A DNA stretch of 64,000 nucleotides, from positions 620,001 to 684,000 of the forward strand of contig NZ_CP083371.1 of NCBI RefSeq assembly GCF_017488845.2, in the 5' to 3' direction. Each line of letters starts with the position of its first letter. Position 1 is the first letter of the stretch. Below are positions 24,905-49,143 of this stretch, in pieces. The stretch comes from Ensifer canadensis. GTDB lineage: Bacteria; Pseudomonadota; Alphaproteobacteria; Rhizobiales; Rhizobiaceae. The translations under genes and the position numbers were made by a program. The notes below the pieces were generated by a model, which saw only the letters and a list, made by a program, of their open reading frames with translations, ran no database searches and was not told the origin of the DNA.

Positions 24905-24975
24905 CTGCCTGGCCGGGTGCGTTCTCACGGGTTTTCCGGATGGCGCATCCTTCGCCTCTAGCGATGGAGCCTTCC

Positions 24976-27218: not shown

Positions 27219-27221
27219 GTC

Positions 27222-30474: not shown

Positions 30475-30475
30475 G

Positions 30476-33137: not shown

Positions 33138-33178
33138 TGCCAACCACCTCTCCCATGAACGGAAGGAGAAGAGGGCTA
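33120..33178 (-). repeat. RIME-like rhizobial intergenic repeat
   Basis: On the minus strand the stretch reads CCCTCTTCTCC... GGGAGAGGTGG ... GCCGGACGAGGG. This is the pattern of a common palindromic repeat between rhizobial genes (RIME family). It lies between the binding-protein stop and the ATPase gene and supplies that gene's apparent start. The assignment is by remembered pattern, not alignment. Confidence 0.5.
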
Positions 33179-34201
33179 GCTCGATTTTGGCTCGGCGTCG
33201 TTGATCTCGACGGCGAACGAGCCATCCTTGATCATCTTTTCCTTCTCCGCGACCTTGGCCTTGATGTCGTCCGGAACCTTGCTGTCGAAGGTGCCGAGAG
33301 GCGCGAGCGAACAGCCGCCGTTCTTCATGAAGGAATAGACGCCGTAGTCGTCGGCCTTGAAAGTGCCGGCCTTCACTTCGGCGATAGCCTTGTCGAGTGT
33401 CGGTTCGAAATGCCACAGCGCGGAGACGACAACGGTGTCCGGATAGTCCGCCTGGGTATCGATGACATTGCCAATGGCCAGGACTTTCTTCTCCTTGGCG
33501 GCGTCGGACACGCCGAAACGCTCGGCATATAGAAGGTCCGCACCGCCATCGATCTGGGCGAATGCGGTCTCCTTGGCCTTGGGCGGATCGAACCACGAGC
33601 CGATGAAGGCGACCTGGAACTTGGTGTCCGGGGCCACTTCATTCACGCCAGCCATGAACGCGTTCATCAGCCGGTTGACCTCCGGGATCGGATAGCCTCC
33701 CACCATGCCGATGTTCTTGGACTTGGTCATTGCGCCGGCGACCAGGCCGGACAGATAGGATGCGTCCTGGATATAGTTGTCGAAAACCGAAAAGTTCGGC
33801 ACGGCGGCATCGGGCTTGAAGCTCGAGCCCATCAGGAAGGCGACGTCAGGATAGTCTTTGGCGACGGCGCGGGCGGCATCCTCGACGCCGAAGACCTCGC
33901 CCAGGATCAGCTTGTGGCCGGCCTCGCAATATTCGCGCATGACGCGCTCGTAATCGTTGTTCGCGGTGTTTTCAGAATAGACATATTCGATGTCGCCGCG
34001 CTCCTTGGCGGCATTAGCTGCCTTGTGGATACGGCTGACCCACTGCTGCTCGACCGGGACGGTATAGATGGCCGCCACCTTTATCGGGTCCGCAGCAAAC
34101 AGACGGCTCGGCAGACCCGCCGCGGCCACCACGGCGGATGCGCCAGCAACTTTCATCAGGGTTCTTCTGGAAATGGCGGAATTGAAGGAATTGCTATGCA
34201 T
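33176..34201 (-). CDS. BMP-family substrate-binding protein (Tat-exported)
   Basis: This 341-residue basic membrane protein/PnrA-type binding protein is typical of nucleoside importers. The N-terminus carries a twin-arginine motif (SRRTLMK) and a hydrophobic stretch ending RLFAADP, so Tat export of a folded protein is likely. GAGGGGAA precedes the ATG at 34201. It heads the operon of ATPase, two permeases and codA and should bind cytosine, another pyrimidine or a nucleoside. Confidence 0.9.
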   Translation of the reverse strand: MHSNSFNSAISRRTLMKVAGASAVVAAAGLPSRLFAADPIKVAAIYTVPVEQQWVSRIHKAANAAKERGDIEYVYSENTANNDYERVMREYCEAGHKLILGEVFGVEDAARAVAKDYPDVAFLMGSSFKPDAAVPNFSVFDNYIQDASYLSGLVAGAMTKSKNIGMVGGYPIPEVNRLMNAFMAGVNEVAPDTKFQVAFIGSWFDPPKAKETAFAQIDGGADLLYAERFGVSDAAKEKKVLAIGNVIDTQADYPDTVVVSALWHFEPTLDKAIAEVKAGTFKADDYGVYSFMKNGGCSLAPLGTFDSKVPDDIKAKVAEKEKMIKDGSFAVEINDAEPKSS

Positions 34202-34484
34202 TAAATTCCCCTCTGGTTGATTGCGCGTTTTGGAACACGTCTTTTTTACCACTTGGTCAATGTAGGTGAAGTTGGAGGTTGCAGCAATTGGGTGCCGCGG
34301 AAAGTTCGCCGCAGGCAATGGAAGCAAAACGCGGGATCACGAAGGCCGCTCGATCGTGAATTGCGGGCGTGAGCCCATCGCGGCGCTGAGCAAAGGCCTG
34401 CCGCTATTCTCCGAAATCGCCGCGCCGACGCTTCTCAAGCTGATGAGCTCGAAGGCTTTTCCGGGGGTGGGGGGTGGCGCAGAT

Positions 34485-35921
34485 CTATCGGGTGGCGTGA
34501 ACCCGTCGCCGAAGGGTCGGTTGCCGGGGCAACACCTTTCCCGGATTGAGGATCGCGGACGCATCGAGCGTGTCCTTGACCCGATGCATCAGCGCCAGCT
34601 TGACCGGGTTCGATGTGGCTGACAGTGACCCCACTCTCTTGGTGCCGATCCCATGCTCGGCAGAGAATGACCCGCCGATCGTAACTATGTCCCTGTAGAG
34701 CACCTTCTCAATGGCTTTCGCCTTTTCGCCTGCAATGTCACTGCCAGCCGCGTTGAGGACGATATGGAGATTTCCGTCAGCAAGATGGCCGAACACGTAG
34801 GGATCGAACGTGGCATCCAGTCCCCTGAGATCTGCAAGACAGCGATTAAGATAAGACCCGACTTGCGATAGAGGAACCGAGACATCGTAGGATGGTGCGC
34901 TCGGATGCTTTCGGTAGATGAGGTCCGTGTCTTCGCGCAGTCGCCAAAGATCCATCTCCTGCGCACCTGAGGATGCAATGACGGCTGAGGCGTCGGGGTG
35001 ATCCTCGATGACGTCTTCATAGATACGTCCCAGTTCCGATTGCAACGCTCCCTCCTCGGCCCCGCTTAGTGAAACCAGCAGGTTGACCGGATGCTCGGCA
35101 TTGTAGTCCGAGACAGACCAACGATGATGGCCGGATGTCAGACGGAAATAGGTGTTCCAGATCGCTTCCGCAGCGCGTAGTTGACCGTACTCGGCGTCGA
35201 GACCTCGACGAACTGTCTCGAGCGCTGCATCAACTGACGGTAAACCGAAGAGGACAGTGGCCGTGGCAAAGGGCTGGGGCTCAAGCTTGACGGCAATACG
35301 CGTTATGATGCCGAGTGTTCCTTCGGCTCCCACAAAGAGATGTTTCAGATCATAGCCGGCCGCGTTTTTCACGACCCGTGTAAGATCGGAATAGATCGAG
35401 CCATCCGCGAGCACGGCCTCCAGGCCGAGAATGCGATGCCGCATGACCCCAAACCGAAAGGCTGCAATACCCCCGGCATTCGTCGAGGCCATACCTCCGA
35501 TCGTTGCCGAACCGCGCGATGGCAAATCGATCCCTGTTTCAAGTCGATGCTCCGCGGCCGCCACTTGCAGCGCTTGCAGTGTCACGCCGGCCTCCACGAC
35601 CGCAACCCGCTCGATTGGTGAAATATCCAGGATTCGATTGAGGCGGACGGTTGAAAGCACCAGTTCGCCCGGCCGAGACATCGCCCCGCCTACGAGCCCG
35701 GTTCGTCCTCCATGGGTGACGAGCGAGATCCCGTTGGCGAGGCAACATTTGACGACGGCGGCAACCTCATCGGTCGTTCTCGGGAAGACTACGGCGCCTG
35801 CCCCGAGATTTTCAGGTGCAACTCCGTGGTCGATCGTGGCAATGGCCTCCTCGTCCTTGAGATTTTCGTCACCAACAATTCTACGAATTTCGTCTTTGAA
35901 TTCGGGCTGTAGGCGATCCAT
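34485..35921 (-). CDS. FAD-linked 2-hydroxyacid oxidase/dehydrogenase (GlcD/D-LDH type)
   Basis: This 478-residue VAO/PCMH flavoprotein has the FAD-binding blocks SLVTHGGRTGLVGGA and IDLPSRGSATIGGMASTNAGG and a C-terminal FAD-oxidase domain with GHLADGNLHIVL and FSAEHGIGTKR. Members oxidise D-2-hydroxyacids such as D-lactate, D-2-hydroxyglutarate or glycolate to keto acids. It is the last gene of the ten-gene demethylation operon and could regenerate or consume the keto acid tied to the HisC-like aminotransferase. Specificity unknown. Confidence 0.87.
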   Translation of the reverse strand: MDRLQPEFKDEIRRIVGDENLKDEEAIATIDHGVAPENLGAGAVVFPRTTDEVAAVVKCCLANGISLVTHGGRTGLVGGAMSRPGELVLSTVRLNRILDISPIERVAVVEAGVTLQALQVAAAEHRLETGIDLPSRGSATIGGMASTNAGGIAAFRFGVMRHRILGLEAVLADGSIYSDLTRVVKNAAGYDLKHLFVGAEGTLGIITRIAVKLEPQPFATATVLFGLPSVDAALETVRRGLDAEYGQLRAAEAIWNTYFRLTSGHHRWSVSDYNAEHPVNLLVSLSGAEEGALQSELGRIYEDVIEDHPDASAVIASSGAQEMDLWRLREDTDLIYRKHPSAPSYDVSVPLSQVGSYLNRCLADLRGLDATFDPYVFGHLADGNLHIVLNAAGSDIAGEKAKAIEKVLYRDIVTIGGSFSAEHGIGTKRVGSLSATSNPVKLALMHRVKDTLDASAILNPGKVLPRQPTLRRRVHATR

Positions 35922-35977
35922 TCGATGTTACCTGTTGGTGGATGTCGAGAACGGTGAGATGTCTGCGGCAGACTTGT

Positions 35978-36559
35978 TCAGGCCGTGTCAGTTTTGAGCG
36001 CGCCACTCTTCTTTGCCGTCCAGGTGGCGATGAAGTCCATGAGGCCAGGGTTGAGGCAGTCATAGGGCTCAATACCAAGCTCTCGCAGGCGGCCACGCAC
36101 GCCATCCATCTTTGCCGGATCGTATCCGCTTTCGATGATCGAAGACACGAAAGCCGCAAACCCCGGCTTCGCCCAGCCCGTTTCCTGGAACCGCTCAGGA
36201 TGCAAGAAGGAAAGCCCCTTGAACGGATGGTCGCGTTCGACGGGGCCGTACATGTGCACGCCGCAGTCCTTGCAGGCGTGGCGCAGAATAAGAGCGGCCG
36301 GGTCCATGACAGCGAGCTTGTCGCCGTTTTCGAGTATCTCGACATTGTCCGTCGGCGCGACGGCGACGACCGAGAAGACAGCACCATCGGGCTTCCAGCA
36401 CTTGGTACAGCCGCAGGCATGGTTATGGGCAATGTCGCCCCTGATCCGGACCTTCACAGGGTTGCTCGCGCAGTTGCACACAAGTGTGCCGCCCGAGAAG
36501 GCTGCATCGGTCGCCTGGAAACCGGAATCGAGGGATGGATGTATCGCAACGCTTGGCAT
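35978..36559 (-). CDS. gfa: Glutathione-dependent formaldehyde-activating enzyme Gfa
   Basis: This 193-residue Gfa-family zinc protein favours the condensation of formaldehyde with glutathione. Zinc ligands are seen in [19 protein letters not shown] and [23 protein letters not shown] lies 7 bases before the ATG at 36559. It is encoded right after glutathione-dependent formaldehyde dehydrogenase, forming a two-step formaldehyde disposal unit in the operon that encodes a Rieske oxygenase. Confidence 0.9.
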
Positions 36560-36676
36560 GGGCTTCTCCTCCTTCATGGCCGGCGCGGTATGCCCGGCAG
36601 ATCATTGGCATCGCCGGGCGGACGCTTGGCGATGTGATGAACGGATTGCATTCGTGATGCGGTCGTGAACCCGCGC

Positions 36677-37810
36677 TCAGTATACCACGACGCTGCGGAT
36701 GCTTTCGCCGGAATGCATCAGTTCGAAGCCCTTGTTGATGTCTTCGAGCGGCATCGTGTGGGTGATCATCGGATCGATCTCGATCTTGCCCTCCATGTAC
36801 CAGTCGACAATCTTCGGCACGTCGGTGCGGCCGCGCGCGCCGCCAAAGGCGGTGCCCATCCAGCTGCGACCGGTGACGAGCTGGAACGGACGGGTGGAGA
36901 TCTCCTGGCCAGCGCCGGCAACGCCGATCACCACCGACTTGCCCCAGCCGCGATGCGAGGCTTCGAGCGCCTGGCGCATCACCTTGGTGTTGCCGGTGCA
37001 ATCGAACGTATAATCGGCACCGCCGATCTGGTCGGCCCCGCGCTTCGTCATGTTGACGAGGTAAGGCACGATGTCGTCGCCGACCTCCTTCGGATTGACG
37101 AAGTGGGTCATGCCAAAGCGTTCGCCCCAGGCCTTCTTGTCGTTGTTGAGATCGACGCCGATGATCATGTCGGCGCCGGCAAGCCTGAGGCCCTGGATGA
37201 CATTGAGGCCGATGCCGCCGAGGCCGAAGACGATCGCGGTCGCACCGATCTCGACCTTGGCCGTGTTGATCACCGCGCCGATGCCGGTGGTGACGCCGCA
37301 GCCGATATAGCAGATCTTGTCGAACGGCGCGTCGGGATTGACCTTGGCGACGGCGATCTCCGGCAGCACGGTGTAATTGGCGAAGGTCGAGCAGCCCATA
37401 TAGTGATGGATCTTGTCCTTGCCGATCGAAAAGCGCGAGGTGCCATCCGGCATCAGGCCCTGGCCCTGGGTCGAGCGGATCGCCGTGCACAGGTTGGTCT
37501 TGCGCGACAGGCACGACGGGCAGGAGCGGCATTCCGGCGTGTAGAGCGGGATGACGTGATCGCCCTTCTTGACCGAGGTCACGCCCGGGCCGACATCGAC
37601 GACGACGCCGGCACCTTCATGGCCGAGGATCGCCGGGAACAGACCTTCCGGATCCGCGCCGGCAAGCGTGAAATCGTCGGTGTGGCAGATGCCGGTCGCC
37701 TTGACTTCGACCAGCACCTCGCCGGCCCGCGGGCCTTCGAGCTGAACGGTCATCACTTCCAGCGGGTTGCCGGCCTGAACGGCGACGGCGGCGCGTACAT
37801 CCATGGACAT
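36677..37810 (-). CDS. adhC: S-(hydroxymethyl)glutathione dehydrogenase (class III ADH)
   Basis: This 377-residue zinc alcohol dehydrogenase has the catalytic zinc Cys in TGICHTDDFTLAG, GHEGAGVV with the ligand His, the structural zinc loop CRSCPSCLSRKTNLC and the NAD site VFGLGGIGLNVIQG. The length and sequence fit class III ADH, which oxidises S-hydroxymethylglutathione to S-formylglutathione. AGGAAAGAGA precedes the ATG. No S-formylglutathione hydrolase is encoded nearby, so that step must come from elsewhere. Confidence 0.93.
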   Translation of the reverse strand: MSMDVRAAVAVQAGNPLEVMTVQLEGPRAGEVLVEVKATGICHTDDFTLAGADPEGLFPAILGHEGAGVVVDVGPGVTSVKKGDHVIPLYTPECRSCPSCLSRKTNLCTAIRSTQGQGLMPDGTSRFSIGKDKIHHYMGCSTFANYTVLPEIAVAKVNPDAPFDKICYIGCGVTTGIGAVINTAKVEIGATAIVFGLGGIGLNVIQGLRLAGADMIIGVDLNNDKKAWGERFGMTHFVNPKEVGDDIVPYLVNMTKRGADQIGGADYTFDCTGNTKVMRQALEASHRGWGKSVVIGVAGAGQEISTRPFQLVTGRSWMGTAFGGARGRTDVPKIVDWYMEGKIEIDPMITHTMPLEDINKGFELMHSGESIRSVVVY

Positions 37811-37853
37811 TTCTCTTTCCTTTTAACGTTTTCGGCCATTTCAGGCAGTCGGC

Positions 37854-38540
37854 CTATCGGGGCAGGTAGCGCGTAAGATGGGCTTCCAGGAGCCGTACGA
37901 GCGTGATCAGCACCAGATTGATCAGGAGATAGAGCACACCGGCGATGGCGAATATTTCGAGGATTGCATAGGTCTGGCTCATCAGCCGCTTTGCATGGCC
38001 GGTGATTTCGAGGACGGTGATGGTGGAGGCAAGGCTCGTTCCCTTGACGACGAGCACAAGCTCGTTGCCGTAGGCCGGCAGCGCTTGCCTGATGGCGAGG
38101 GGGAACGTGATCCGGCGAAAGCGCAGAAACCGCGACATGCCGCAGGCCTGAGCGGCTTCGACGAGCCCTCCCGGAATGGACATGAGGCCGCCGCGCAGGA
38201 TTTCCGATGTATAGGCCGCCGTGTTGAGTGCCAGCGCCATAACAGCGCAATGGGCGCCATCGCCGACGATCCACCAGAGCATGGGGTTGTCGCGCACGAA
38301 GGAAAGCTGGCCGAGGCCGTAGTAGAAGAGAAAGAGCTGGACCAGTAGCGGCGTGCCGCGGAAAACGGTGCTGTAGCTTTTGGCAAAACTGCTCAGAGCC
38401 GTGTTTTTCGACAGACGCATGACCGCAAGCGCCAGACCGAGATTGAAGCCGATGACGATCGAAGTGACAGTCAGGACAGCGGTGAGCCACAGCCCCTTGG
38501 CAAGGGTCGGAACTGCGAGGCGAACGAGTTCGAAATCCAT
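37854..38540 (-). CDS. Amino-acid ABC transporter permease (HisM type)
   Basis: This 228-residue polar amino-acid permease has the HisMQ-class signature SSFAKSYSTVFRGTPLLVQLFLFYYG and the EAA-like loop EAAQACGMSRFLRFRRITFPLA. It starts 3 bases after the companion permease stops. With it and the fused ATPase it imports the substrate of the demethylation operon. Confidence 0.91.
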   Translation of the reverse strand: MDFELVRLAVPTLAKGLWLTAVLTVTSIVIGFNLGLALAVMRLSKNTALSSFAKSYSTVFRGTPLLVQLFLFYYGLGQLSFVRDNPMLWWIVGDGAHCAVMALALNTAAYTSEILRGGLMSIPGGLVEAAQACGMSRFLRFRRITFPLAIRQALPAYGNELVLVVKGTSLASTITVLEITGHAKRLMSQTYAILEIFAIAGVLYLLINLVLITLVRLLEAHLTRYLPR

Positions 38541-38543
38541 GGC

Positions 38544-39251
38544 CTATTTCCTCGTACGGGGACGCAGAAGGCGTTCGATCCAATCGAAACCACCCTGGCT
38601 GACCAGCGTGATTGCGAGGTAGACGACAGCGGCGATGAGATAAAAGATGAAGGGATGGCGGGTCGAACCCGCCCCGACGAAGGCCGCGCGCATCAGTTCC
38701 TGCAAACCGACCACGGAGACAAGCGCGGTGTCTTTGATCGTGGTCTGCCAGACATTGTTCATACCCGGTACCGCGATCCGCAGCATCTGTGGGGCGATAA
38801 TGCGGCGGAAGATGCGCCTGCCTGGAATCCCAAGCGCCCGCGCCGCTTCGATATGTTCGGCCGGTATGGCAGCCAGAGCCCCCCGCACGACCTCCGTCGA
38901 ATAGGCCCCCGATATGGCTGCGATTGCAACGACTGCGATGGTGAAGGCGTAGCCGTGGCCAGCCAGACCTTCATAGCCAAACGCCGCGGCGACCTGGGCT
39001 ACGAATTCCACGGAGGAAAAGAAGAGGAGATAGATGATCAGGAGTTCCGGGACGCCGCGCACGATCGACGTGTAGACGTCCACGACAAGCGTGAGCGGAA
39101 ACAGCCGCGCCCATTTCATCAGGCCGCAGGCAACGCCGATGACGATGCCGAAGGCCATGCTCGTGACCCCAAGGGCGACGGTGATCGCCGCGCCGCGCAG
39201 GATTGCGGAGATCCAGCCGCCGTCCCATACCTGCCATAATCCAAGTTCCAT
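38544..39251 (-). CDS. Amino-acid ABC transporter permease (HisQ type)
   Basis: This 235-residue permease has the same family blocks (YTSIVRGVPELLIIYLLFF and EAARALGIPGRRIFRRIIAPQM). Placement between the binding protein and HisM-type permease is standard for basic amino-acid and opine importers. Confidence 0.91.
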   Translation of the reverse strand: MELGLWQVWDGGWISAILRGAAITVALGVTSMAFGIVIGVACGLMKWARLFPLTLVVDVYTSIVRGVPELLIIYLLFFSSVEFVAQVAAAFGYEGLAGHGYAFTIAVVAIAAISGAYSTEVVRGALAAIPAEHIEAARALGIPGRRIFRRIIAPQMLRIAVPGMNNVWQTTIKDTALVSVVGLQELMRAAFVGAGSTRHPFIFYLIAAVVYLAITLVSQGGFDWIERLLRPRTRK

Positions 39252-39349
39252 CGAACCCGCCCAACCTTCGCATTGTCCTGTCGGATGAAGCCCCCCGAAG
39301 AAGGATCGACCTGACGGCCTTTCCTCACCCGGGAGACGTCGTGTTGGTG

Positions 39350-40147
39350 TTACTGGCAGGGACGGGAGATGTCCGTCTTGAACCAGGTCTGGCTCGTATT
39401 GCCGATCGAGCCGTCAGCGACCAACTCGCAGAGCGCCTCGTCGATGCGGGCCTTCAGCTCGGTATTCTCCTGCGAAATGCCGACGCCGATGCCTTCGCCA
39501 AGCGTCGGATCGAAAGTGCTGAGCACCTTCACATCGACGAACTGGAAGTCCTTGCCATCCGGGCGCGCCAGGAAATCCTGAAGGGCGGAGGCATCGGCGA
39601 AGGCGGCCTCGACGCGGCCGCTGGCGAGATCGATCTGCATCTGGTCGAGCGTGTCGTAGGTCTTCAGGACGGCGGAGGAGGCGCGCTTTTCCACGAAATG
39701 GGCATGGGTCGTGCCGGCCTGGACGCCGACCGTGCGGCCGTCGAGCGATTTCAGCAGCGCATCGATGTCCTTGATGCCGGCGAGATCGGAATCCTTCTTC
39801 ACCACGAACATGTTTGCGAGTTCCGCATAGCCGACCGAGAAGTTGATCTGCTTCTTGCGTTCAGCCGTGATCGACATGCCGGAAATGATGATGTCGAAAC
39901 GTTTGGCTTTGAGCGCCGGAATGAGACCGTCGAAGGCCTGCACGACGAAATGGCACTTCATCTTCAGCTTGGCGCAGAGCAGGGTCCCGACATCGGCGTC
40001 GAAACCCGTCACGTTACCGGTGGCGTCTGCCATGCTCCATGGCGGATACTCACCCTCCGTCCCGATCGACAATTCGCCCTCGGCGGCCTGGGCCGCAGTG
40101 AGGCCGGCGGCGAAGAACGTGGCGAGCAATAGACTTTTGAGCTTCAT
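39350..40147 (-). CDS. Amino-acid ABC transporter substrate-binding protein
   Basis: This 265-residue periplasmic binding protein of the lysine/arginine/ornithine/opine cluster has a signal peptide (about residues 1-21, ending TAAQAAEG). The mature protein opens LSIGTEGEYPPWSMADATGNVTGFDADVG, the usual binding-cleft start. DGLIPALKAKRFDIIISGMSIT follows. It begins 78 bases after the fused amidase-ATPase gene, with a hairpin between them. The ligand is inferred to be a modified amino acid. Confidence 0.9.
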   Translation of the reverse strand: MKLKSLLLATFFAAGLTAAQAAEGELSIGTEGEYPPWSMADATGNVTGFDADVGTLLCAKLKMKCHFVVQAFDGLIPALKAKRFDIIISGMSITAERKKQINFSVGYAELANMFVVKKDSDLAGIKDIDALLKSLDGRTVGVQAGTTHAHFVEKRASSAVLKTYDTLDQMQIDLASGRVEAAFADASALQDFLARPDGKDFQFVDVKVLSTFDPTLGEGIGVGISQENTELKARIDEALCELVADGSIGNTSQTWFKTDISRPCQ

Positions 40148-40184
40148 GTTTTGGTTCCCCATGTTGAACTTTCTTGTTGGGTCT

Positions 40185-40206
40185 CGTCCGGAGAGATCCC
40201 CGGACG
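40185..40206 (-). other. Intra-operon hairpin before the binding-protein gene
   Basis: CGTCCGG (40185-40191) pairs with CCGGACG (40200-40206) over an 8-base loop, in the 77-base gap before the binding-protein start. There is no T run. It may be an RNA-processing or stability element raising binding-protein output. Confidence 0.45.
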
Positions 40207-40224
40207 GGTGATGGCGGCGGAATG

Positions 40225-42189
40225 TCAGAGCGTACGGGCCAGGAACTGGCGCATGCGTTCGGAGCGCGGGTTGGTGAAGACCTCCGCCGGGGCACCCTCC
40301 TCCTCCACCTTTCCCTGATGGAGGAAGAGGATCTTGTGCGAGACCTCGCGCGCGAACTGCATTTCGTGCGTCACGAGGATCATCGTATTTCCTTCTTCGG
40401 CCAGTTGCCGGATCACGCGCAGCACCTCGCCGACAAGCTCGGGATCGAGCGCGGAGGTCGGCTCGTCGAGGAGGATGAGCTTGGGGCGCATGGCGAGCGT
40501 TCGGGCGATGGCGGCGCGCTGCTGCTGACCGCCCGACAGCTGGCCTGGATACTGGTCGTGCTTGTCGGAGAGGCCGACTTTCTTCAGGAGCGCATGGGCA
40601 TGGTCGACAGCCGCCTGCCGCTCTTCCTTCAGGACATGCCGCGGCGCCTCGATGATGTTTTCGAGAACTGTCATGTGCGGCCAGAGATTGAAGTTCTGGA
40701 ACACCATGCCGACGCGTGAGCGGATGCGCTCGACCTGCCGCATGTCGGCCGGCGCGGCGCTGCCGTCCGACGTCTTCTTCATGCGGATTTCCTCGCCATC
40801 GATAACGATGCGCCCGTCGTTTGGCTGTTCGAGCAAATTGATGCAGCGCAGGAACGTGCTCTTTCCCGAACCGGAGGAGCCGATCATCGACACGACCTCG
40901 CCCGGTTGCGCGGAGATGTTGACGCCGTTGAGCACGGGGAGGGGACCGAAGCGCTTGTGGATGTCGTGCACTTCGATCGCCGGCCTTTCGTCAAGCCTTG
41001 GACCGCTAGCTTCCGGGTGGGCGACGACGGTGACGGCCGGCGCCGCAGGAACCGGCTTTTCGGCACCTGCGCCGCCGACCGACTTGAGGTCTGCGAAGGC
41101 ACGGTCGAAATGGCGCAGCGAAGCGGCAAGACAAGTGCGCTGCCAGTCAGCGTCCTCCGGAATGAAGGCGGCGCGCAGGGTCTCCTTGATCCTGCTGCCG
41201 AGCGGGGTATCGATCTTGCCGAATAAATGAAGCCAGTTGTCCGCCTGAACCGCATCCGCGACCGTGGCGCCGTCGAGGGTTCCGCATTCGACGACCAATG
41301 GCAGGACGCGCGCCTTCGGCAGCGCGTCTCGCACCGCGGCCGAGACATAGCCGGTGGCCGTCGCGGAGATGCCGGTATCTGTGGTTGCATTCTCGCCGGT
41401 GACGACGACCGAGAGCGTCGGACCGAAGATGCGCCGCCCCCAATCCAAACCGTCGTGCTCGTTCTCAGCAACGGAGAGGAGGGCAGGATAGCCGTAAGGG
41501 CCCGCGCCCGTGTGCAGGTCGAAGACGACGACCTCAGTCGCCTGTTGCGCGAATGTCGATAGGATCTCGATGAGGGTGCGGTTGGACCAGACAGGACCGT
41601 CGCCGCCGTAGAACAGGCCGTCCGGAAAGAGGTACTGGCCGGCTTCCACAATGGGCGCGATGCCGGCATAGCCGCCGAGTCTCCGTTTGGCCGCTTCGTA
41701 TGCCTCAGCGGCCGCATCGCGCTCCGGGCCTTCCCAGGCACGACAGACGAGCGCGCAGTGCAGTGCGGCATACCGTTCGTTTTTCGGCGGCGCTTTCTGC
41801 CAGTCGATGAAATTGCGGTTGACGTCGACGTTGTCTTCGTTCACCCGGCGCGTCCAGGCCGTGCCCCAGGGGTTGATGAGGTGGATGGCTAGGACCGCGG
41901 TGTCGTCGGGGAGCTGCCAGGGCGAATTTTGTGAAAGCCAGGCAGTCTGGCAGGCCGAGCCGAAAGGACCCTCGACGCCATGGGTGCCGGAGATCAACAC
42001 CAGGAGCTTCTTGGCATCATCGCGTCCAAGATAGGCAACGTCGGTCGCCAGACGCTCGCCGTTCGGTCCGTGCAGCGGATGCAGGTATTCGACGACACTA
42101 GCCCCAGCGGTGCGCGCGGCGGAGAGAAACCGGGCGCGCAGGGCCGAGAAATCGCCGGCGAAAAGACCGGATGGCGTTGAAGGGGACAT
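40225..42189 (-). CDS. Fusion of DUF2817 (M14-like zinc amidase) with amino-acid ABC ATPase
   Basis: This single 654-residue frame joins two complete modules. Residues about 1-380 form a DUF2817/M14-like metallo-hydrolase with a full zinc site: His and Glu in SGTHGVEG (near 70-73), His in VVFDLHTGAGPYGY and the likely catalytic Glu in VVECGT. A linker of about 25 residues rich in Ala, Pro and Val leads to a full HisP-type ATPase (about 405-654: Walker A GSSGSGKS, signature LSGGQQQRAAIARTL, Walker B LILLDEPTSALD, His switch VTHEM). The ATG at 42189 has GGGAG upstream; an ATG at 42237 is also possible. The hydrolase would sit at the cytoplasmic mouth of the importer. Confidence 0.9.
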   Translation of the reverse strand: MSPSTPSGLFAGDFSALRARFLSAARTAGASVVEYLHPLHGPNGERLATDVAYLGRDDAKKLLVLISGTHGVEGPFGSACQTAWLSQNSPWQLPDDTAVLAIHLINPWGTAWTRRVNEDNVDVNRNFIDWQKAPPKNERYAALHCALVCRAWEGPERDAAAEAYEAAKRRLGGYAGIAPIVEAGQYLFPDGLFYGGDGPVWSNRTLIEILSTFAQQATEVVVFDLHTGAGPYGYPALLSVAENEHDGLDWGRRIFGPTLSVVVTGENATTDTGISATATGYVSAAVRDALPKARVLPLVVECGTLDGATVADAVQADNWLHLFGKIDTPLGSRIKETLRAAFIPEDADWQRTCLAASLRHFDRAFADLKSVGGAGAEKPVPAAPAVTVVAHPEASGPRLDERPAIEVHDIHKRFGPLPVLNGVNISAQPGEVVSMIGSSGSGKSTFLRCINLLEQPNDGRIVIDGEEIRMKKTSDGSAAPADMRQVERIRSRVGMVFQNFNLWPHMTVLENIIEAPRHVLKEERQAAVDHAHALLKKVGLSDKHDQYPGQLSGGQQQRAAIARTLAMRPKLILLDEPTSALDPELVGEVLRVIRQLAEEGNTMILVTHEMQFAREVSHKILFLHQGKVEEEGAPAEVFTNPRSERMRQFLARTL

Positions 42190-42310
42190 GCGAGGGGGCT
42201 CCCGGTTTGCTTTGTGCTGACGTGCGTTTGCGCTCATTGTTCGTTCCCGTGGGGTCGCGGCCCGACCCCTTGTTGTGTGTCGGATTGGAGGGGACGTCGC
42301 AGGCGTCTCC

Positions 42311-43426
42311 TCATCCTTCACGCTTGGCGAGAGCGCGAAGCGCGTCGAGAAAGCGGTCGTTTTCCGAGGGCGTGCCGATCGTCACACGGATGAAGGTCTC
42401 GTAACCCTCTTCTTTCCACGGCTTGACGATGATGGCCTTCGACAGGAAGTGATTCAGCGCCGCCCGGCTGTCCCAGCCGACGTCGATGAACAGGAAGTTC
42501 GTCTGCGATCGGGCCACCGAAAGCCCCATGGCGGCAACGGCATCGGCCACACGTGCCCGCTCGCGTTTCAATGCGGCAACCGAAGAGCGCATCCATGCCT
42601 CGTCCTCCAGTGCGGCAACGGCTGCGACCTGCGCGGCAGCATTGACGTTGAACGGCGTCTTGGCGGCGGTCACGGCGCGCGCGAGCCGCGCATCGGACAT
42701 CACGGCATAACCGACACGCAGGCCGGCAAGGCCGTAGGCCTTGGAAAAGGTTCGCAATACGACCCAGGACAGGTCCGTGGCCGAGAGCGCGGCGAGGCCG
42801 TCAGGCATGTCTTCGTCCGTGAACTCGAAGTAGGCTTCGTCCAGAACGAGAAGCGTCTGCGGCGTGACCGCCGCGAGAATGCGCTCCAGGCTTTCGCGGT
42901 CGAGCGCCGGGCCGACCGGATTGGAGGGGGAGGAGAGGAAGAAAATCACCGGCGCCCGCTCGAGCATGGCGACGATCGCCGGTATGTCGAAGTTCAGATC
43001 TGTCCGCATGCCGACCTTCTCGACCTTGGCGCCATTGGCCAGCGCCTCGATCTCGTGCAGCCCAAAACCGGGACAGACTGTCGCCGCGAGGGCACCGGGA
43101 CGCAGCACGGCGCGACAGACCGCGGCGATCATCTCCTCCGAGCCGTTACCGGCCACGATACGTTCAGCGGGAACGCCGAGCTTATGGCTGAGCACCGCCC
43201 GCAGCACCGTGCAGGCCGGGTCGCTGTAGCGCGACGGATTGAGGTTGGCGAGCGCCGCCGCGACATCCGGCGAACAGCCATCCGGGTTTTCATTGCTGGC
43301 AAGGGCAGCGATGTCCTGCCGACCGCTGTGCTTTTGTGCGGCGGCGATGCTCATGCCGGCATTGTACGGCGGCAGGCCTGCTACATGCGGATTGAGCGGG
43401 ATTTCGGTATGGAGCGGTTTCGTCAC
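42311..43426 (-). CDS. HisC-like pyridoxal-phosphate aminotransferase
   Basis: This 371-residue class I/II aminotransferase is most like histidinol-phosphate aminotransferases. It has ALASNENPDGCSP, the LVLDEAYFEF block and the PLP lysine in VLRTFSKAYGLAGLRVGY. Because it sits in a catabolic operon, it more likely transaminates the demethylated amino acid than makes histidine. HisC-type enzymes accept imidazole and aromatic side chains, which hints at the kind of substrate. Confidence 0.88.
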   Translation of the reverse strand: MTKPLHTEIPLNPHVAGLPPYNAGMSIAAAQKHSGRQDIAALASNENPDGCSPDVAAALANLNPSRYSDPACTVLRAVLSHKLGVPAERIVAGNGSEEMIAAVCRAVLRPGALAATVCPGFGLHEIEALANGAKVEKVGMRTDLNFDIPAIVAMLERAPVIFFLSSPSNPVGPALDRESLERILAAVTPQTLLVLDEAYFEFTDEDMPDGLAALSATDLSWVVLRTFSKAYGLAGLRVGYAVMSDARLARAVTAAKTPFNVNAAAQVAAVAALEDEAWMRSSVAALKRERARVADAVAAMGLSVARSQTNFLFIDVGWDSRAALNHFLSKAIIVKPWKEEGYETFIRVTIGTPSENDRFLDALRALAKREG

Positions 43427-43486
43427 GGATCCTCCTTCGGGGATTGGACACCCTGGTTCAGGCCGCAGCCTCTTGTTCTGAGCGCG

Positions 43487-44587
43487 TCAGAGATCGAGCA
43501 CGATCGAGGATTTCGGCCTGGTGCAGCACAACAGCACCCGGCCGTCCGGCATCGCGTCGAGCGGCTCCTCGAAATAGTCGACCTCGCCTGAGACGAGACC
43601 CTGTTCGCAAGTCCCGCAGACCCCCGCCCTGCAGGAGAATTCTGGCTCGATGCCCCGTGCCTCCAGGAAGGCAAGGATTGATTCGCTCGTCCCGTCCCAG
43701 GCAAGGCTGCGACCCGACTTCTGGAGAACGATGCGTGGGCCGTCCCCCTCGGTGGCTGGCTCGGCGGCGCGCGCCATCGCGGGCCGCGCCGTCAACTGCC
43801 CGGCCTCCGACAACAGGCTCGCCGGCCCGAAGAATTCGTAGGCAATGCGTTCCTTCCGCACTCCGAGGCCGGTCAGAATGCCGTAGATGGCCCGCATAAA
43901 GGGCGGCGGCCCGCACATGTAGATGTCGTAGTCGTCGAGCGGCAGAAGGCTCTGAAGCGTGGTGCGCGTCAGGAAACCCGTCGAGTGGCACCGGGCGACC
44001 GCGAGATCGCCGGTCTCGGCGAAACGGTAGCAGAAGTGTACGGCGATGCCGGACCGCTGGGCGGCGAGTTGCTCGACTTCCTCTCGCAACGCATGAACGG
44101 CCGCGCTGTCGCAGGCATGGATGAACCAGACGGGGCGGTCGCTTTCCCTTGCCAGCACATTCAGCATCGAGACCGTCGGTGTCAGCCCGACGCCGCCAGA
44201 AAGAAGCACGACGGGCCCCGAACTCGCGCTGTCGAGCTTGAAGGCACCGCGCGGCGGGTCAATCTCGACGACGGCGCCGGGCTCGATCTCGTCATGGAGC
44301 CAGCAGGAGCTCAGGCCATCCGGCACGTCCTGCGACGGTGCGGCCTCACGCTTCACGGTTATCCGGTACGTGCCTTCCTCGCGCGGGGACGAGGAGACCG
44401 TATAGTTGCGCAGGACATGGCCACCCTTGCGGTCGGGAACGCGCATCGTCAGGAACTGTCCCGCCTCGAACGGCCGCCAGTGCTGCCGTTCGAGAGGGGC
44501 AAGGCGGAAAGACGTGATCGTGGTGCTTTCGCGCACCTTCGAGACAACTTCGAAGGGGCGAAAGCGCGAGGCCGCGGCATCGAGCAT
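43487..44587 (-). CDS. Rieske oxygenase reductase (FNR-like, C-terminal 2Fe-2S)
   Basis: This 366-residue electron-transfer protein has an FAD domain with RNYTVSSSP, an NAD(P)H domain with VVLLSGGVGLTPTVSML and CGPPPFMRA, and a C-terminal plant-type ferredoxin domain (FSCRAGVCGTC...LLCC). This domain order is that of reductases serving demethylating Rieske oxygenases such as the glycine-betaine and carnitine enzymes. It starts 13 bases after the oxygenase stop and should pass electrons from NAD(P)H to it. Confidence 0.92.
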   Translation of the reverse strand: MLDAAASRFRPFEVVSKVRESTTITSFRLAPLERQHWRPFEAGQFLTMRVPDRKGGHVLRNYTVSSSPREEGTYRITVKREAAPSQDVPDGLSSCWLHDEIEPGAVVEIDPPRGAFKLDSASSGPVVLLSGGVGLTPTVSMLNVLARESDRPVWFIHACDSAAVHALREEVEQLAAQRSGIAVHFCYRFAETGDLAVARCHSTGFLTRTTLQSLLPLDDYDIYMCGPPPFMRAIYGILTGLGVRKERIAYEFFGPASLLSEAGQLTARPAMARAAEPATEGDGPRIVLQKSGRSLAWDGTSESILAFLEARGIEPEFSCRAGVCGTCEQGLVSGEVDYFEEPLDAMPDGRVLLCCTRPKSSIVLDL

Positions 44588-44599
44588 CCGGATTGATCC

Positions 44600-45646
44600 T
44601 TATTCAGCGGCTTCGCTGGTCGTGCCGGCTTTCGCCTCGGCGGCAATCAGTTGGGCGAGCTTGCGGCGAAAGCGCATCGGGCCGACGTCGATCTTCAGGT
44701 CGAGGTTCGGTGTCTGCATGTTGGCCATTGCGTGATGGACCGCCTCCAGCACGACGCGATCCTCTTCGAAGGCGCCTCGTACGGATTTCGCGAAACTCTC
44801 GGAAACCTTGGCGTCGTCCGGCGCGAAGTTGCGCATCTGGAACCAATAGTATTTGGTCCGGTTTTCATCGACCGGCGTCATGAAGTTGTAGCTGTCCATG
44901 AGGAAGGTGTTTTCTGGCAGGACGCGGCCTTCCCCGCCGTTGTGGGCCGGCGCGAAGATGGCCTTAATGATCGCGTTGCTCGGATAGCGCACCTCGTAGT
45001 GTTGCTTGCGGTCGGTGTTGCCCTCGAATTGCAGGAAGGGCGCGTAGAACGGGGCCGGTTCGGAATCGATCATCCAGCGCCAGACGGTGACGCCGTCGTC
45101 CTTCACGGTCGTCTCGAGCGGGGTTTCCTCACAGGCCGAGCTTGCGAAGGATGACTGATGGACCCAGGCGACATGGGACGGGTCGAGCAGGTTGTCCGTC
45201 ATGTAGAGGTAATTGCAGTTGAGCGTCATGGACTCGCCGCGATTGATTCCCCAGGCGGGATTACCGAAATACTCGACTTCGAAGATTTCCTTCGGATCCG
45301 CCTTCTCTGCATCGCCCATCCAGATCCAAAGCAGGCCGTAGCGCTCGTGGACTGGGTAAGATCGCACCTTGGCGACATGCGGAATGCGCTCGGCGCCCGG
45401 AACCCGCGTGCAGGAGCCCGAACAATCGAAGGTCAGGCCGTGATAGCCGCATTCCACGTCGTCACCTTTGATGCGGCCCATGGACAGCGGCAGCTTCCGA
45501 TGGGGACAGGCATCCTCGAGCGCGGCGGCATGGCCGTCCTGCTTGCGGTAAAGAACGATGTGTTCGCCGAGGATCGTGACCGATTTTAGCTCGCGGCCGA
45601 CTTCTTGGTCCCAGGCTGCGACGTACCAGGCATTCTTGAGAAACAT
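44600..45646 (-). CDS. Rieske non-haem iron oxygenase, VanA-like (probable demethylase)
   Basis: This 348-residue oxygenase has a complete Rieske 2Fe-2S site, C47-x-H49 and C66-x2-H69 (DACPHRKLPLSMG, ECGYHGL). The mononuclear iron motif D151-x3-D155-x2-H158-x4-H163 (DNLLDPSHVAWVH) is also complete, so all key residues are present. The VanA/DdmC-like subgroup commonly removes methyl groups from O or N as formaldehyde. Gfa and formaldehyde dehydrogenase in the same operon support that reaction. First gene of the ten-gene operon, divergent from a LysR regulator. Confidence 0.92.
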   Translation of the reverse strand: MFLKNAWYVAAWDQEVGRELKSVTILGEHIVLYRKQDGHAAALEDACPHRKLPLSMGRIKGDDVECGYHGLTFDCSGSCTRVPGAERIPHVAKVRSYPVHERYGLLWIWMGDAEKADPKEIFEVEYFGNPAWGINRGESMTLNCNYLYMTDNLLDPSHVAWVHQSSFASSACEETPLETTVKDDGVTVWRWMIDSEPAPFYAPFLQFEGNTDRKQHYEVRYPSNAIIKAIFAPAHNGGEGRVLPENTFLMDSYNFMTPVDENRTKYYWFQMRNFAPDDAKVSESFAKSVRGAFEEDRVVLEAVHHAMANMQTPNLDLKIDVGPMRFRRKLAQLIAAEAKAGTTSEAAE

Positions 45647-45724
45647 TTCGCTCTCCTTGCGTTTTGTTAAGCGAATGTCCGCCGTTTTTTTTGTGCCAAC
45701 AAGTTGCCAGCTCCTGCGTTCTTT

Positions 45725-45739
45725 TTTAGATTTTCTAAA
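45725..45739. promoter_or_regulatory. Candidate LysR binding site in the divergent promoter
   Basis: TTTAGATTTTCTAAA has perfect 6-base inverted arms around a 3-base centre, AT-rich, 79 bases from the oxygenase start and 31 bases from the LysR start. Position and form fit a LysR-type recognition site. The strength of the match to a LysR consensus is modest. Confidence 0.5.
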
Positions 45740-45769
45740 TTGAGCGACCTGTCCGAGGAGTGCCTAACG

Positions 45770-46702
45770 ATGCCGAACCCGTCCTTGCGCGGCCTGCAAG
45801 CCTTTGAGGCGATCGGACGATGTGGCTCGGTCAGCGCCGCTGCGGAGGATCTCGGTGTAACGCCCGGCGCCGTCAGCCAACTGGTACGAAACCTGGAGCA
45901 ATGTCTTGGGCTCACGCTTTTGGAGCGACGTGGGCGGCGGGTTGAATTGTCGTCATGGGGGCGGCTGTATTACCGGGAAGTCGCGAAAGGCTTTCAGCAG
46001 CTCTCCCATGCCGCCAATATTCTCACGCGCGCCAGGAACGAGACCGGGATCGTCCTCAGTGCCTTGACCTCGGTCGCCAACAGGTGGGTCGGTCGCAAGA
46101 TTTTCGACTGGCAGTCCCTCTGTCCGGAATCCAGTGTGCGCATTCTCGGCCAGGAGCAAGAGCCCCGCATCGGTATCGAGCAGGTGGACTTCCGCATTAC
46201 CTACGGCCGGCGCGCCTATGCGCACGAGCATGTCGCAAATCTGTTCACCGACTGGGTCGTACCGGTCTGTTCGCCCGCGTTGATCGCCAACCGTGTCCTC
46301 GACAGTCCGCAGGCCATTCTCAAATTCCCGCTGCTAAACGTGGAATGGGAGGCGGATTACAAGGCTTCGCCGCAATGGAGGGACTGGGCCGCCTTGGTGC
46401 ATGCCGATGGCCGCCAAACGTTCTCTGGCCTTTCGTTTGCTTTGTCGAGCAGCGCCATTGACGCGGCGGTGAACGGTAGGGGATTCGTTCTCGCACAGGT
46501 TTCGATGGTACTGGATGAGGTCGCCTCCGGCGCCTTGATGGTTCCCTTCGACATTCGCATGCAACTGTCCGAAAGCTACTACTTAGCCTGGGACCGGACG
46601 GCTCTCGAAAAGCCGTTCGGGCAAAAATTTCACAAATGGCTAATCGGGGTAGCGAGACAACAGGAGCTGCTGTCCGCTCCGGCTAAAGGCGCAGCCACCT
46701 GA
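45770..46702 (+). CDS. LysR-family regulator (GcvA-like)
   Basis: This 310-residue regulator has an N-terminal helix-turn-helix (LRGLQAFEAIGRCGSVSAAAEDLGVTPGAVSQLVRNLE) and a C-terminal effector domain. The opening is that of the GcvA/AmpR subgroup. GAGGAG precedes the ATG at 45770. Divergent from the Rieske oxygenase gene, it very probably activates the demethylation operon in response to the substrate. It is monocistronic. Confidence 0.9.
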   Translation: MPNPSLRGLQAFEAIGRCGSVSAAAEDLGVTPGAVSQLVRNLEQCLGLTLLERRGRRVELSSWGRLYYREVAKGFQQLSHAANILTRARNETGIVLSALTSVANRWVGRKIFDWQSLCPESSVRILGQEQEPRIGIEQVDFRITYGRRAYAHEHVANLFTDWVVPVCSPALIANRVLDSPQAILKFPLLNVEWEADYKASPQWRDWAALVHADGRQTFSGLSFALSSSAIDAAVNGRGFVLAQVSMVLDEVASGALMVPFDIRMQLSESYYLAWDRTALEKPFGQKFHKWLIGVARQQELLSAPAKGAAT

Positions 46703-47200: not shown

Positions 47201-47244
47201 TTGACAAAGCCCAGCTATGTATACTTTATAAATACAAGAAGTAT
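47201..47244 (+). promoter_or_regulatory. Candidate promoter/operator of the TRAP operon
   Basis: TTGACA (47201-47206) is followed 18 bases later by the AT-rich TTTATAAAT. Overlapping this is an inverted repeat ATACTT (47221-47226) / AAGTAT (47239-47244) and a GTATAC core as seen in GntR/FCD sites. It lies 23-66 bases before the small TRAP subunit start. No regulator gene is adjacent. Confidence 0.4.
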
Positions 47245-47266
47245 GCAGGAAGAGGAGGCGCGTGCC

Positions 47267-47881
47267 ATGTCATCGACCGGGGAGCCACGAAACCACCCGC
47301 TCTGGGCGGAGAAAATAACAGGATTGTCCCAGGCGCTCCTGCGCGCTGAGAAGTTCCTGGCCGGGATTTTCATAACGGTGCTGCTCGCGCTGATTTTGGT
47401 GAATGTCATCACCCGATTCGCCAAGGTGCCAATCTACTGGATCGACGAGGCCTCGATCTTCTCCATGATCTGGCTTGGCTTTATCGGGGCTTCGGTCATG
47501 ACGCGGCTGCGGATCGATTTCGCCGTCACGCTTCTGTCGGATCAACTGTCACCCAAATGGGTCGCGCGGCTGCGCGCCTTTTCCACCGCAATATCGCTGA
47601 CTTTTGCGACCGGCTTTGCGGTGGTGTGCTGGATCTGGCTGGATCCGCTGGGCATCGCTTCCCACGGTTTCGACGCTCAGGCTTTTGCCGCCGAAACGTT
47701 CAACTTCCTCTACACCGAGCGAACCCAGACGCTGGAATGGCCGACCTGGATCGTCAACCTGATTCTGCCGATCTTCGCTCTCACGCTCATCGTCCACAAT
47801 GCTGCAAACCTGCTTGAAGACCTCGGCATCGCGCGCAAGCGCGTACAGGTCTCGCTGACGACTGCAGAAGGAGCCGCCTGA
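47267..47881 (+). CDS. TRAP transporter small membrane subunit (DctQ type)
   Basis: This 204-residue subunit has four predicted membrane helices and the DctQ-family block YWIDEASIFSMIWLGFIGASVMTR. GAGGAGG lies 9 bases before the ATG at 47267, which is preferred over earlier in-frame starts in the promoter. Its stop and the next start overlap (TGATG). It works with DctM and DctP to import a carboxylate or similar anion using an ion gradient. Confidence 0.9.
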   Translation: MSSTGEPRNHPLWAEKITGLSQALLRAEKFLAGIFITVLLALILVNVITRFAKVPIYWIDEASIFSMIWLGFIGASVMTRLRIDFAVTLLSDQLSPKWVARLRAFSTAISLTFATGFAVVCWIWLDPLGIASHGFDAQAFAAETFNFLYTERTQTLEWPTWIVNLILPIFALTLIVHNAANLLEDLGIARKRVQVSLTTAEGAA

Positions 47882-49143
47882 TGTTTACCTTCGGCGCATT
47901 CGTTGCCCTCATGCTAGTCGGCCTGCCGATCTCCATTGTGCTTTGCCTCACGGCCGCCGCGTATATCTGGCAAAGCGACAATACGGTCCTGTTCGTCTCC
48001 TTTCCCACCCAAATGTTCATGGGTCTTGACAGCTACGGCTTGATCGCCATTCCGCTGTTCATTCTCATCGGCGAGATCATGAACGGCGGCGGCATCACGC
48101 GCCGTATCATCGACATGGCAATGGCATTCGTCGGCGCGCTCAAGGGCGGCCTTGCCTATGTGAACCTGCTCGCCAACATGTTCGTGGCGTCCATTCTCGG
48201 CTCGGCCGCGGCCCAGGTTGCGCTGATGTCGCAGATGATCGTCCCGGAAATGGAGAAGAAGGGCTATGACAAGACCTTCGCTGCCGGTCTGACCGCCTAT
48301 GCCGGCATGCTGGGGCCGATCATTCCCCCTTCCATCATGTTCGTCGTCTACAGCGTCATCGCGCAGGTTCCCGTCGGAACCATGCTGGCCGCCGGTATCA
48401 TTCCCGGCGTCATTCTTACCATCGCCTTTTGTGTGGTGATCGCGCTTATGGGATACGTCTACAACTACCCGCGCGGCACCAGCCTGCCGATGAGCGAGCG
48501 TGTGACCATCACGCTGAAGGCCGCGCCGACACTGATCATCCCGCTGATCATCGTGGGATCGATCGTGACCGGGCTCGCCAATCCGACCGAAGCCGCGGCC
48601 ATGGGCGTGGTTGCCGCAATCCTCGTCGGGCGTTTCGTGACCGGCGATCTCCGCCTGAAGCAGCTTCCCGAGATGTTCGTCAAGGCAGGGGTCCTGTCGG
48701 CCGGCATTCTGTTCCTGATCGCTGCGGCTGCCGTATTTTCCTGGGTTCTCGTCTACGGAATGGTTCCCCAGCACGTGGCGGAATGGATCCAGACGATCGC
48801 GAAAGACCCGGTGACGTTTATGCTGCTGGTCAATGTGATCCTGCTCGTCATCGGCACGGTCATCGATGGCGCGCCCGGGCTGATCATGACAGTTCCGATC
48901 CTGCTGCCGATTGCGACAGAAGTCTACGGCATCGATCCGGTGCATTTCGGCGTCGTCGCCGTGATCAACCTGGTCCTGGGCTTTCTGTCCCCGCCGGTCG
49001 GCTTGAATTTCTTCATTGCCGCCGCAGTAACGGGGGCGAAGCCCGGCAAGATGTTCATCGTAACGCTGCCGTTTTTCCTGATCTGCTGCGTCATCCTTGT
49101 GCTGCTTTCGATCTTCCCGGCACTGTCGACCTACTTCTCCTAA
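47881..49143 (+). CDS. TRAP transporter large membrane subunit (DctM type)
   Basis: This 420-residue transport subunit has about 12 hydrophobic segments. Family blocks include the GGITRRIIDMA region, GSAAAQVALMSQMIVPEM, YAGMLGPIIPPSIMFVVY and the late LGFLSPPVGLNFF. It overlaps the small subunit by one base and is followed by the binding protein 30 bases later. Confidence 0.92.
   Translation: MFTFGAFVALMLVGLPISIVLCLTAAAYIWQSDNTVLFVSFPTQMFMGLDSYGLIAIPLFILIGEIMNGGGITRRIIDMAMAFVGALKGGLAYVNLLANMFVASILGSAAAQVALMSQMIVPEMEKKGYDKTFAAGLTAYAGMLGPIIPPSIMFVVYSVIAQVPVGTMLAAGIIPGVILTIAFCVVIALMGYVYNYPRGTSLPMSERVTITLKAAPTLIIPLIIVGSIVTGLANPTEAAAMGVVAAILVGRFVTGDLRLKQLPEMFVKAGVLSAGILFLIAAAAVFSWVLVYGMVPQHVAEWIQTIAKDPVTFMLLVNVILLVIGTVIDGAPGLIMTVPILLPIATEVYGIDPVHFGVVAVINLVLGFLSPPVGLNFFIAAAVTGAKPGKMFIVTLPFFLICCVILVLLSIFPALSTYFS

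Follow-up and report, generated by a model that had tools for sequence, protein, structure and literature searches.

A ten-gene Rieske oxygenase operon of Ensifer canadensis with a predicted role in feeding methylhistidine into histidine utilisation

Which compound does a bacterium degrade when a Rieske oxygenase, an amino-acid importer, a hydrolase fused to the importer's ATPase and two formaldehyde-detoxifying enzymes are encoded together? The question is raised by a 64,000-nucleotide stretch of the 8.09-Mb genome of Ensifer canadensis (G000 in coordinates; contig NZ_CP083371.1, positions 620,001 to 684,000), the whole of which is referred to here as the window. Within it, ten open reading frames (ORFs) lie on the minus strand at 34485-45646, separated by gaps of 3 to 99 nt with one 11-nt overlap, and a LysR-type gene is oriented divergently from them. 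We propose that this operon probably, though far from certainly, demethylates a methylhistidine and passes the product to the Hut pathway.

A preliminary description of this DNA, made from the letters alone, had listed ten packed genes beside a divergent LysR gene. It proposed import of an acylated or peptide-linked methylated amino acid, followed by deacylation, oxidative demethylation and transamination. The ORF coordinates confirmed this layout, and profile searches against Pfam and NCBIfam backed each of the ten gene identities (Table 1). For the GlcD-like, permease, binding-protein and LysR products the assignment is to a broad family only, as equivalog cut-offs were unreached (for the GlcD-like flavoprotein, TIGR00387 scored 249.8 bits, cut-off 567.9). 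Import was borne out as a reading by the binding protein, two permeases and ATPase identified by Pfam. Of the "zinc amidase fused to ATPase", the fusion stood, and the hydrolase was corrected to DUF2817, whose predicted model has an M14 metallo-carboxypeptidase-like fold.

The oxygenase scored above the Pfam gathering scores of both PF00355 (78.1 bits against 20.3) and PF19112 (155.4 bits against 23.5). Residues C47, H49, C66, H69, H158, H163 and D296 were invariant in a 20-sequence alignment; by analogy with DdmC, we take these seven to be the Rieske and mononuclear iron ligands, which agrees with the earlier statement that all iron ligands are intact. Comparison of both the model and the sequence placed the dicamba and guaiacol O-demethylases (DdmC and 7qwt) as the closest solved enzymes. 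They differ from the window oxygenase, however, in sharing only ~30% identity with it, in acting on aryl methyl ethers and, for DdmC, in carrying Asn230 where the window protein has Lys228. The caffeine N-demethylases NdmA and NdmB, also Rieske enzymes, are 21-23% identical and act on a neutral purine; we know of no hut context for them. Assignment to a named demethylase such as vanillate O-demethylase was rejected: the best equivalog, NF052579, scored 96.9 against a cut-off of 600, and none of the six NCBIfam families listed was over its cut-off.

A scan of genome contigs yielded 578 relatives of the oxygenase. The locus counts below use the best 80 loci (65-97% identity), many of which end at contig ends or at the 10-kb flank. 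LysR was present in 65 of them (counted at a minimum of 38% identity), the reductase in 56 (minimum 42%), the HisC-like gene in 55 and the GlcD-like gene in 42, while DUF2817, the ATPase, the binding protein and each permease occurred in 44. Gfa was found in 10 and FdhA in 9. The full ten-gene set recurred in eight loci (L024, L026, L039, L048, L050, L053, L056 and L064) and the set minus the two formaldehyde genes in 30; therefore, the gene set is not a chance arrangement. Among 41 related genomes, the oxygenase (at least 87% identity) and DUF2817 (E <= 1e-20) were found in exactly the same nine. Two other features of the relatives may be recorded. On a Gemmobacter fulvus plasmid (L181), three genes annotated as aromatic-ring-hydroxylating (Rieske) oxygenases, one of them the relative, lie within ~9 kb. 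In three Paracoccaceae loci (L087, L091 and L095), a conserved ~360-aa protein, without a Pfam match for the L087 copy, is encoded directly upstream of the oxygenase, near a gene that looks creatininase-like by eye.

Clustering of the genes around these relatives yielded hut-like genes, and one representative each of HutH, HutU, HutF, HutI, HutG and HutC was over its NCBIfam cut-off. At least one hut gene (HutC excluded) adjoined the oxygenase in 20 of the 80 loci, a count that takes in two weak ones, L080 (HutD only) and L045 (HutU and HutD), and at least two hut enzymes were present in 17. Chance adjacency was countered by 40 control loci around VanA_C Rieske genes, drawn from 61 genomes of the same order. 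Hut genes were present at one control, itself an outer relative whose oxygenase is 59% identical to that of the window, and at none of the 36 controls with less than 45% identity or no match. In two Gemmobacter loci (L048, L053) and one of Pseudorhodobacter (L056), all Paracoccaceae, hutF is followed by hutI-hutH-hutG-hutU-fdhA-gfa, then by LysR and the oxygenase, and then by the reductase, HisC-like, GlcD-like, DUF2817-ATPase, binding-protein and permease genes, in one contiguous run (HutG of L048 rests on tblastn). The adjacency and these contiguous loci back the hint in the preliminary description that the substrate may be a methylhistidine derivative such as anserine. HutU was also found in all 50 oxygenase-bearing genomes tested, which represent 50 of the 80 loci, isolates being chosen and metagenome-assembled and a few other loci (such as L022, L038, L040 and L095) omitted; the L100 match is partial and has one internal stop. 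Among the related genomes, HutU was present in 9/9 with the operon versus 16/32 without it, the 16 including all eight Ensifer genomes that lack the operon. We know of no classical hut system with a Rieske demethylation step, DUF2817 or formaldehyde genes. Apart from this, the window genome encodes a second HutU homologue (L205, G000:C1:2365475-2367076; 698 bits against hutU, 51% to the L083 HutU) adjoining a 28% HutH-like gene, which may be a candidate thiourocanate/ergothioneine-type cluster.

FdhA and/or Gfa accompanied the oxygenase in 11 relative loci and in none of the 40 controls, on either side of it and in several arrangements. In the window genome, the operon carries the sole Gfa over cut-off and one of three such FdhA copies. 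Gfa was present in 8/8 Ensifer genomes with the operon versus 4/8 without; G018 has the operon and lacks Gfa, and formaldehyde genes are missing from the listed genes of the Pseudomonas plasmid cassettes described below. The formaldehyde genes are a frequent companion of the oxygenase locus, not a fixed part of it. Their linkage, on which the preliminary description had staked its reading, thus recurs but is not universal. With demethylases as its nearest structures and formaldehyde genes as recurrent neighbours, the oxygenase is predicted to demethylate its substrate oxidatively with detoxification of the formaldehyde, as had been suggested.

Several observations weigh against a methylhistidine route into Hut. 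The formaldehyde genes are linked at only 11 of the 80 loci. In the window genome, hut is not adjacent to the operon: hutI, hutH, hutG and hutU form a group ~570 kb from it on the same replicon, and hutF was not found within that stretch. The three Paracoccaceae loci are close relatives and are the only ones of the 80 that hold hut genes and DUF2817 together. Moreover, the controls come from across the order, many of the relatives are near-copies, and the stretches compared are slightly shorter for the controls (7.1 to 19.9 kb) than for the relatives (5.1 to 21.1 kb). On an oxygenase tree of 98 rows, from which 22 controls were omitted (oxygenase match absent or below 90% query coverage), the hut label changes 12 times, at least nine of them forced by well-supported branches, which answers the near-copy objection only in part.

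The intergenic region between LysR and the oxygenase contains the palindrome TTTAG-N4-TCTAAA. The window holds a single match to TTTAGANNNTCTAAA, with 0 expected in shuffles. Within 160 nt upstream of the oxygenase, TTTAGNNNNTCTAAA was present exactly in 54 relatives and with one mismatch at most in 65, leaving 15 with at least two mismatches; none of 18 controls (those of the 40 kept in the tree) had it at one mismatch or fewer. In an Agrobacterium locus (L043), the reductase, HisC and GlcD genes stand apart on the other strand, and a further copy of the operator lies upstream of them. In G000, the exact box has a single location and a reversed control pattern has two per strand. The genome-wide count was dismissed as evidence by itself, and the conserved position carries the evidence. 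Scans of the operon for sigma-70 promoters and terminators gave counts at or below those of shuffles.

Smaller and variant forms of the locus indicate which genes belong together. Plasmids of Pseudomonas fragi (a meat isolate) and Pseudomonas bubulae (from salad) encode LysR, the binding protein, HisQ, a permease, the ATPase, a separate DUF2817 protein, the oxygenase and the reductase, and HisC, GlcD, FdhA and Gfa are not among the listed genes of these stretches. The P. fragi binding protein, 35% identical to that of the window, was over the cut-off of TIGR01096 (LAO family), with ArgT and HisJ among the best or next-best scores, below those cut-offs. On a Paraburkholderia plasmid (L180), one apparent operon holds the binding protein and a PhyH oxygenase and another holds the oxygenase, reductase and DUF2817; each lies behind an exact operator (L180:9121-9135 and L180:11893-11907), and the two operators tie the PhyH-oxygenase operon to the Rieske and DUF2817 operon. 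One Klebsiella and two Pantoea plasmids (L183, L184 and L185) combine the binding protein, DUF2817, a 2-oxoglutarate (2OG)-Fe(II) oxygenase and LysR but have no Rieske gene, which may point to an analogous pathway built on a different oxygenase; the 2OG oxygenase of L184, the only one of the three tested, matches HalD. A Microvirga locus lacks DUF2817 and carries an M20 amidase (TIGR01879, 260 against 204), an Opp/Nik-type importer, a glutamate-dehydrogenase-family gene and a HutC relative. Taken together, these minimal and variant cassettes lead us to conclude that importer, hydrolase and oxygenase are the working unit and that the transaminase and hydroxyacid dehydrogenase are optional. As a separate observation, the P. 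bubulae plasmid (L179) carries its minimal cassette together with a class 1 integron integrase and qacG2.

The same cassettes bear on whether the oxygenase removes a methyl group at all. It may instead hydroxylate or dioxygenate an unmethylated histidine-derived compound, with the formaldehyde genes as incidental passengers. The low frequency of those genes (11/80) would fit this, as would the hydroxylases SxtT and GxtA, which are structurally close to the oxygenase model, and the HalD-like and PhyH-type 2OG oxygenases, which replace or accompany the Rieske enzyme in the variants. Such 2OG oxygenases are mostly hydroxylases. However, the two nearest solved enzymes are demethylases, several arrangements place formaldehyde genes at the locus and none of the controls has them, and the only over-cut-off Gfa of the window genome sits in the operon; we therefore regard hydroxylation as unlikely, although it is the alternative that survives best.

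A second alternative is that of the preliminary description, in which an acylated methyl amino acid first loses its acyl group, then its methyl group, and is finally transaminated, so that its carbon exits as a 2-oxo acid and not by Hut. The frequency of the HisC-like and GlcD-like genes, neighbours of each other in many loci, argues for it; 40 of the 42 loci with the GlcD-like gene also have the HisC-like one. However, the genes listed for the plasmid stretches of P. fragi, P. bubulae and Shinella HZN7, whose gene tables are incomplete, include no aminotransferase, and the L025, L037 and L081 stretches, which are full-length, lack the HisC-like gene. In all, it is absent in seven of the 44 DUF2817 loci, of which four (L038, L040, L041, L042) end early. 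Hut genes, moreover, are the recurrent neighbours. A final transamination was thus not supported, and a 2-oxo acid exit seems doubtful; the demethylated product more likely enters Hut as histidine. Transamination is better read as a side entry, in which the GlcD-like and HisC-like proteins would turn imidazolelactate into histidine. An imidazolelactate route was reportedly described by Coote and Hassall, a precedent for such a role. The HisC-like gene is one of three copies over the TIGR01141 cut-off in the window genome, so a biosynthetic role for it is not implied.

The importer narrows the substrate further. Its binding protein and permeases belong to the same families as NocT/OccJ and LAO/HisJ, and the closest Protein Data Bank (PDB) entries to the binding protein are NocT and OccJ. 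E36, S97, R102 and D190 were present in 39/39 sequences and Y39 in 38/39. According to a published study (PMC4192606), Ser72 and Asp161 of LAO/HisJ lock the alpha-amine and Arg77 binds the carboxylate, and the nopaline signature of NocT is G97, M117, H170 and S207. S97, D190 and R102 are the equivalents of Ser72, Asp161 and Arg77 in all 39 sequences, giving a LAO/HisJ-type site. NocT shares E36, Y39 and R102 with the window protein but differs at G97 and S207, where all 39 sequences have Ser and Asp; opine import was rejected on this comparison.

A different basic amino acid, methylated or opine-like (methyl-arginine, methyl-lysine or an opine), would suit the kinship with NocT and OccJ, the acidic E36, which fits guanidinium as well as imidazolium, and one Pantoea DUF2817 locus near arginase and CtlX genes. 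It is improbable in our view, given the Ser and Asp of LAO/HisJ in place of the NocT Gly and Ser at the alpha-amine positions and the hut genes recurring by the oxygenase; no search was made for catabolic genes of arginine or lysine. A methyl on the alpha-nitrogen, as in hercynine or N-alpha-methylhistidine, is slightly less probable still: partial GbcB similarity of the reductase (NF058606, 139 bits, cut-off 500) and the existence of Rieske demethylases of betaines (stachydrine and glycine betaine) speak for it, but the oxygenase belongs to the VanA_C type, aryl and heteroaryl demethylases are among the structures nearest to it, and the alpha-amine lock should exclude a quaternary amine.

For an imidazole-methylated histidine, the hydrolase poses the remaining question of whether the compound arrives free or conjugated. 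Sequence comparison of DUF2817 with the PDB gave weak matches only (REP34, E 0.057; MpaA, E 0.73), and a fold search was used. With the predicted model, the first Foldseek matches were N-acyl-amino-acid hydrolases, AstE/AspA-type desuccinylases at rank 1, and the cyanophycin dipeptide hydrolase CphZ ranked 8 (E 1e-5 to 1e-4). They share the M14-type fold but differ in sequence (at most 16% identity; TM-scores ~0.3) and in that the window DUF2817 is fused to an ABC ATPase. H84, E87, N138, R139, H240 and E315 (fragment numbering) were invariant in 19 sequences and presumably fill the M14 roles of HxxE, H, NR and catalytic E. Among the 44 aligned DUF2817 ORFs, 43 are 650-716 aa, the length needed for the ATPase fusion, and that of L081 stands alone; nine ATPase-only ORFs, such as that of L049, which kept the importer without DUF2817, were omitted from the alignment. 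The earlier "acylated or peptide-linked" substrate is thus favoured by the hydrolase fold and disfavoured by the binding protein, whose Ser/Asp lock for a free alpha-amine would be awkward for an acylated compound and weighs against a dipeptide. We hold the conjugate or dipeptide part less firmly than the demethylation. The M14 fold, the fusion and the Microvirga M20 amidase with an Opp-type importer speak for the dipeptide. The operon may, more tentatively, belong to a horizontally mobile module that mineralises anserine/balenine-type dipeptides, the ATPase-borne dipeptidase cutting the peptide on entry ahead of Rieske imidazole-N-demethylation into Hut. In that case, the coupling of hydrolase to transport would be a new architecture, and the oxygenase would be the first demethylase dedicated to methylhistidine.

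From the gene identities, predicted folds, conserved linkage and operator, and the hut and formaldehyde neighbourhoods of the relatives, we infer the substrate, methyl position, reactions and accessory roles as follows. A histidine methylated on an imidazole nitrogen would be taken up through the LAO/HisJ-type ABC importer, either free or bound in a small conjugate (for example anserine or balenine, both beta-alanyl dipeptides). The M14-fold DUF2817 domain on the importer's ATPase would cleave the amide bond of a conjugate, before or after the oxygenase step. Hydroxylation of the N-methyl group by the oxygenase and reductase would release formaldehyde and leave histidine. The formaldehyde would be converted to S-formylglutathione by Gfa and FdhA, and the histidine to glutamate by HutH-U-I-F/G. 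The HisC-like and GlcD-like enzymes may be accessory, bringing imidazolelactate and imidazolepyruvate forms back to histidine.

Table 1. Coordinates and supporting profile matches of the operon, its operator and the LysR gene in the window
Feature	Position	Strand	Evidence or remark
LysR regulator, GcvA type	45704..46702	+	NF008352 214.9 bits, below cut-off 288
LysR-type operator TTTAGATTTTCTAAA, palindromic	45725..45739		78 nt before oxygenase start codon
Rieske oxygenase, VanA_C family, predicted methylhistidine N-demethylase	44600..45646	-	PF00355 + PF19112
FAD/NAD/2Fe-2S reductase of oxygenase	43487..44587	-	PF00970, PF00175, PF00111
HisC-like aminotransferase, accessory, predicted to interconvert imidazolepyruvate and histidine	42311..43426	-	TIGR01141 284.7 bits, cut-off 276.6
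DUF2817 (M14-fold hydrolase) fused to HisP-like ABC ATPase	40225..42321	-	PF10994 + PF00005
Periplasmic binding protein, LAO/HisJ/NocT type	39350..40162	-	PF00497 (SBP_bac_3)
Permease, HisQ type	38544..39251	-	PF00528; NF011714 156 bits, below cut-off 319
Permease, ArtM/HisM type	37854..38540	-	PF00528; NF008336 204, NF011651 191 bits, both below cut-off
S-(hydroxymethyl)glutathione dehydrogenase FdhA/AdhC	36677..37810	-	TIGR02818 581.6 bits, cut-off 544
Gfa, S-(hydroxymethyl)glutathione synthase	35978..36577	-	TIGR02820 303.9 bits, cut-off 234.6
GlcD-like FAD 2-hydroxyacid dehydrogenase, accessory	34485..35921	-	PF01565 + PF02913

The true start of LysR is probably near 45770 (MPNPSLRG) and not at the TTG at 45704. 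The stretch directly downstream of the operon (28244-34327) encodes a cytosine-deaminase-family protein and, below cut-off, two ABC permeases of a putative B6 type; an ATPase and a BMP-like binding protein follow, both recognised by eye. The plus strand at 24940-28004 encodes a polyamine-type ABC importer (PotA-family ATPase over cut-off, two permeases below). Beyond LysR, two plus-strand genes at 47201-49143 resemble by eye a DctQM-type TRAP transporter. A large sensor kinase at 52310-54778, whose similarity to TorS is partial (93.7 bits, far under the cut-off), adjoins a branched-chain amino-acid-type binding protein.

Each part of the proposed system is of a known kind. Among the matches listed in the open-access literature (subscription journals being mostly uncovered), we found neither a bacterial enzyme for using N-tau-methylhistidine or anserine nor the gene combination, the methylhistidine assignment or the hydrolase-ATPase fusion, in line with the earlier remark that no described pathway with this exact gene set was known. 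In animals, N-tau-methylhistidine is a terminal product whose presence in urine serves as the classical marker for the breakdown of muscle protein, and methylhistidine remains as a leftover of eukaryotic protein, that of animal muscle included. If the proposed route is true, one gene family would explain how soil, water and food-associated bacteria recycle methylhistidine, a widespread group of VanA-like Rieske enzymes that has no named family of its own would be given a substrate, and DUF2817 would gain its first role.

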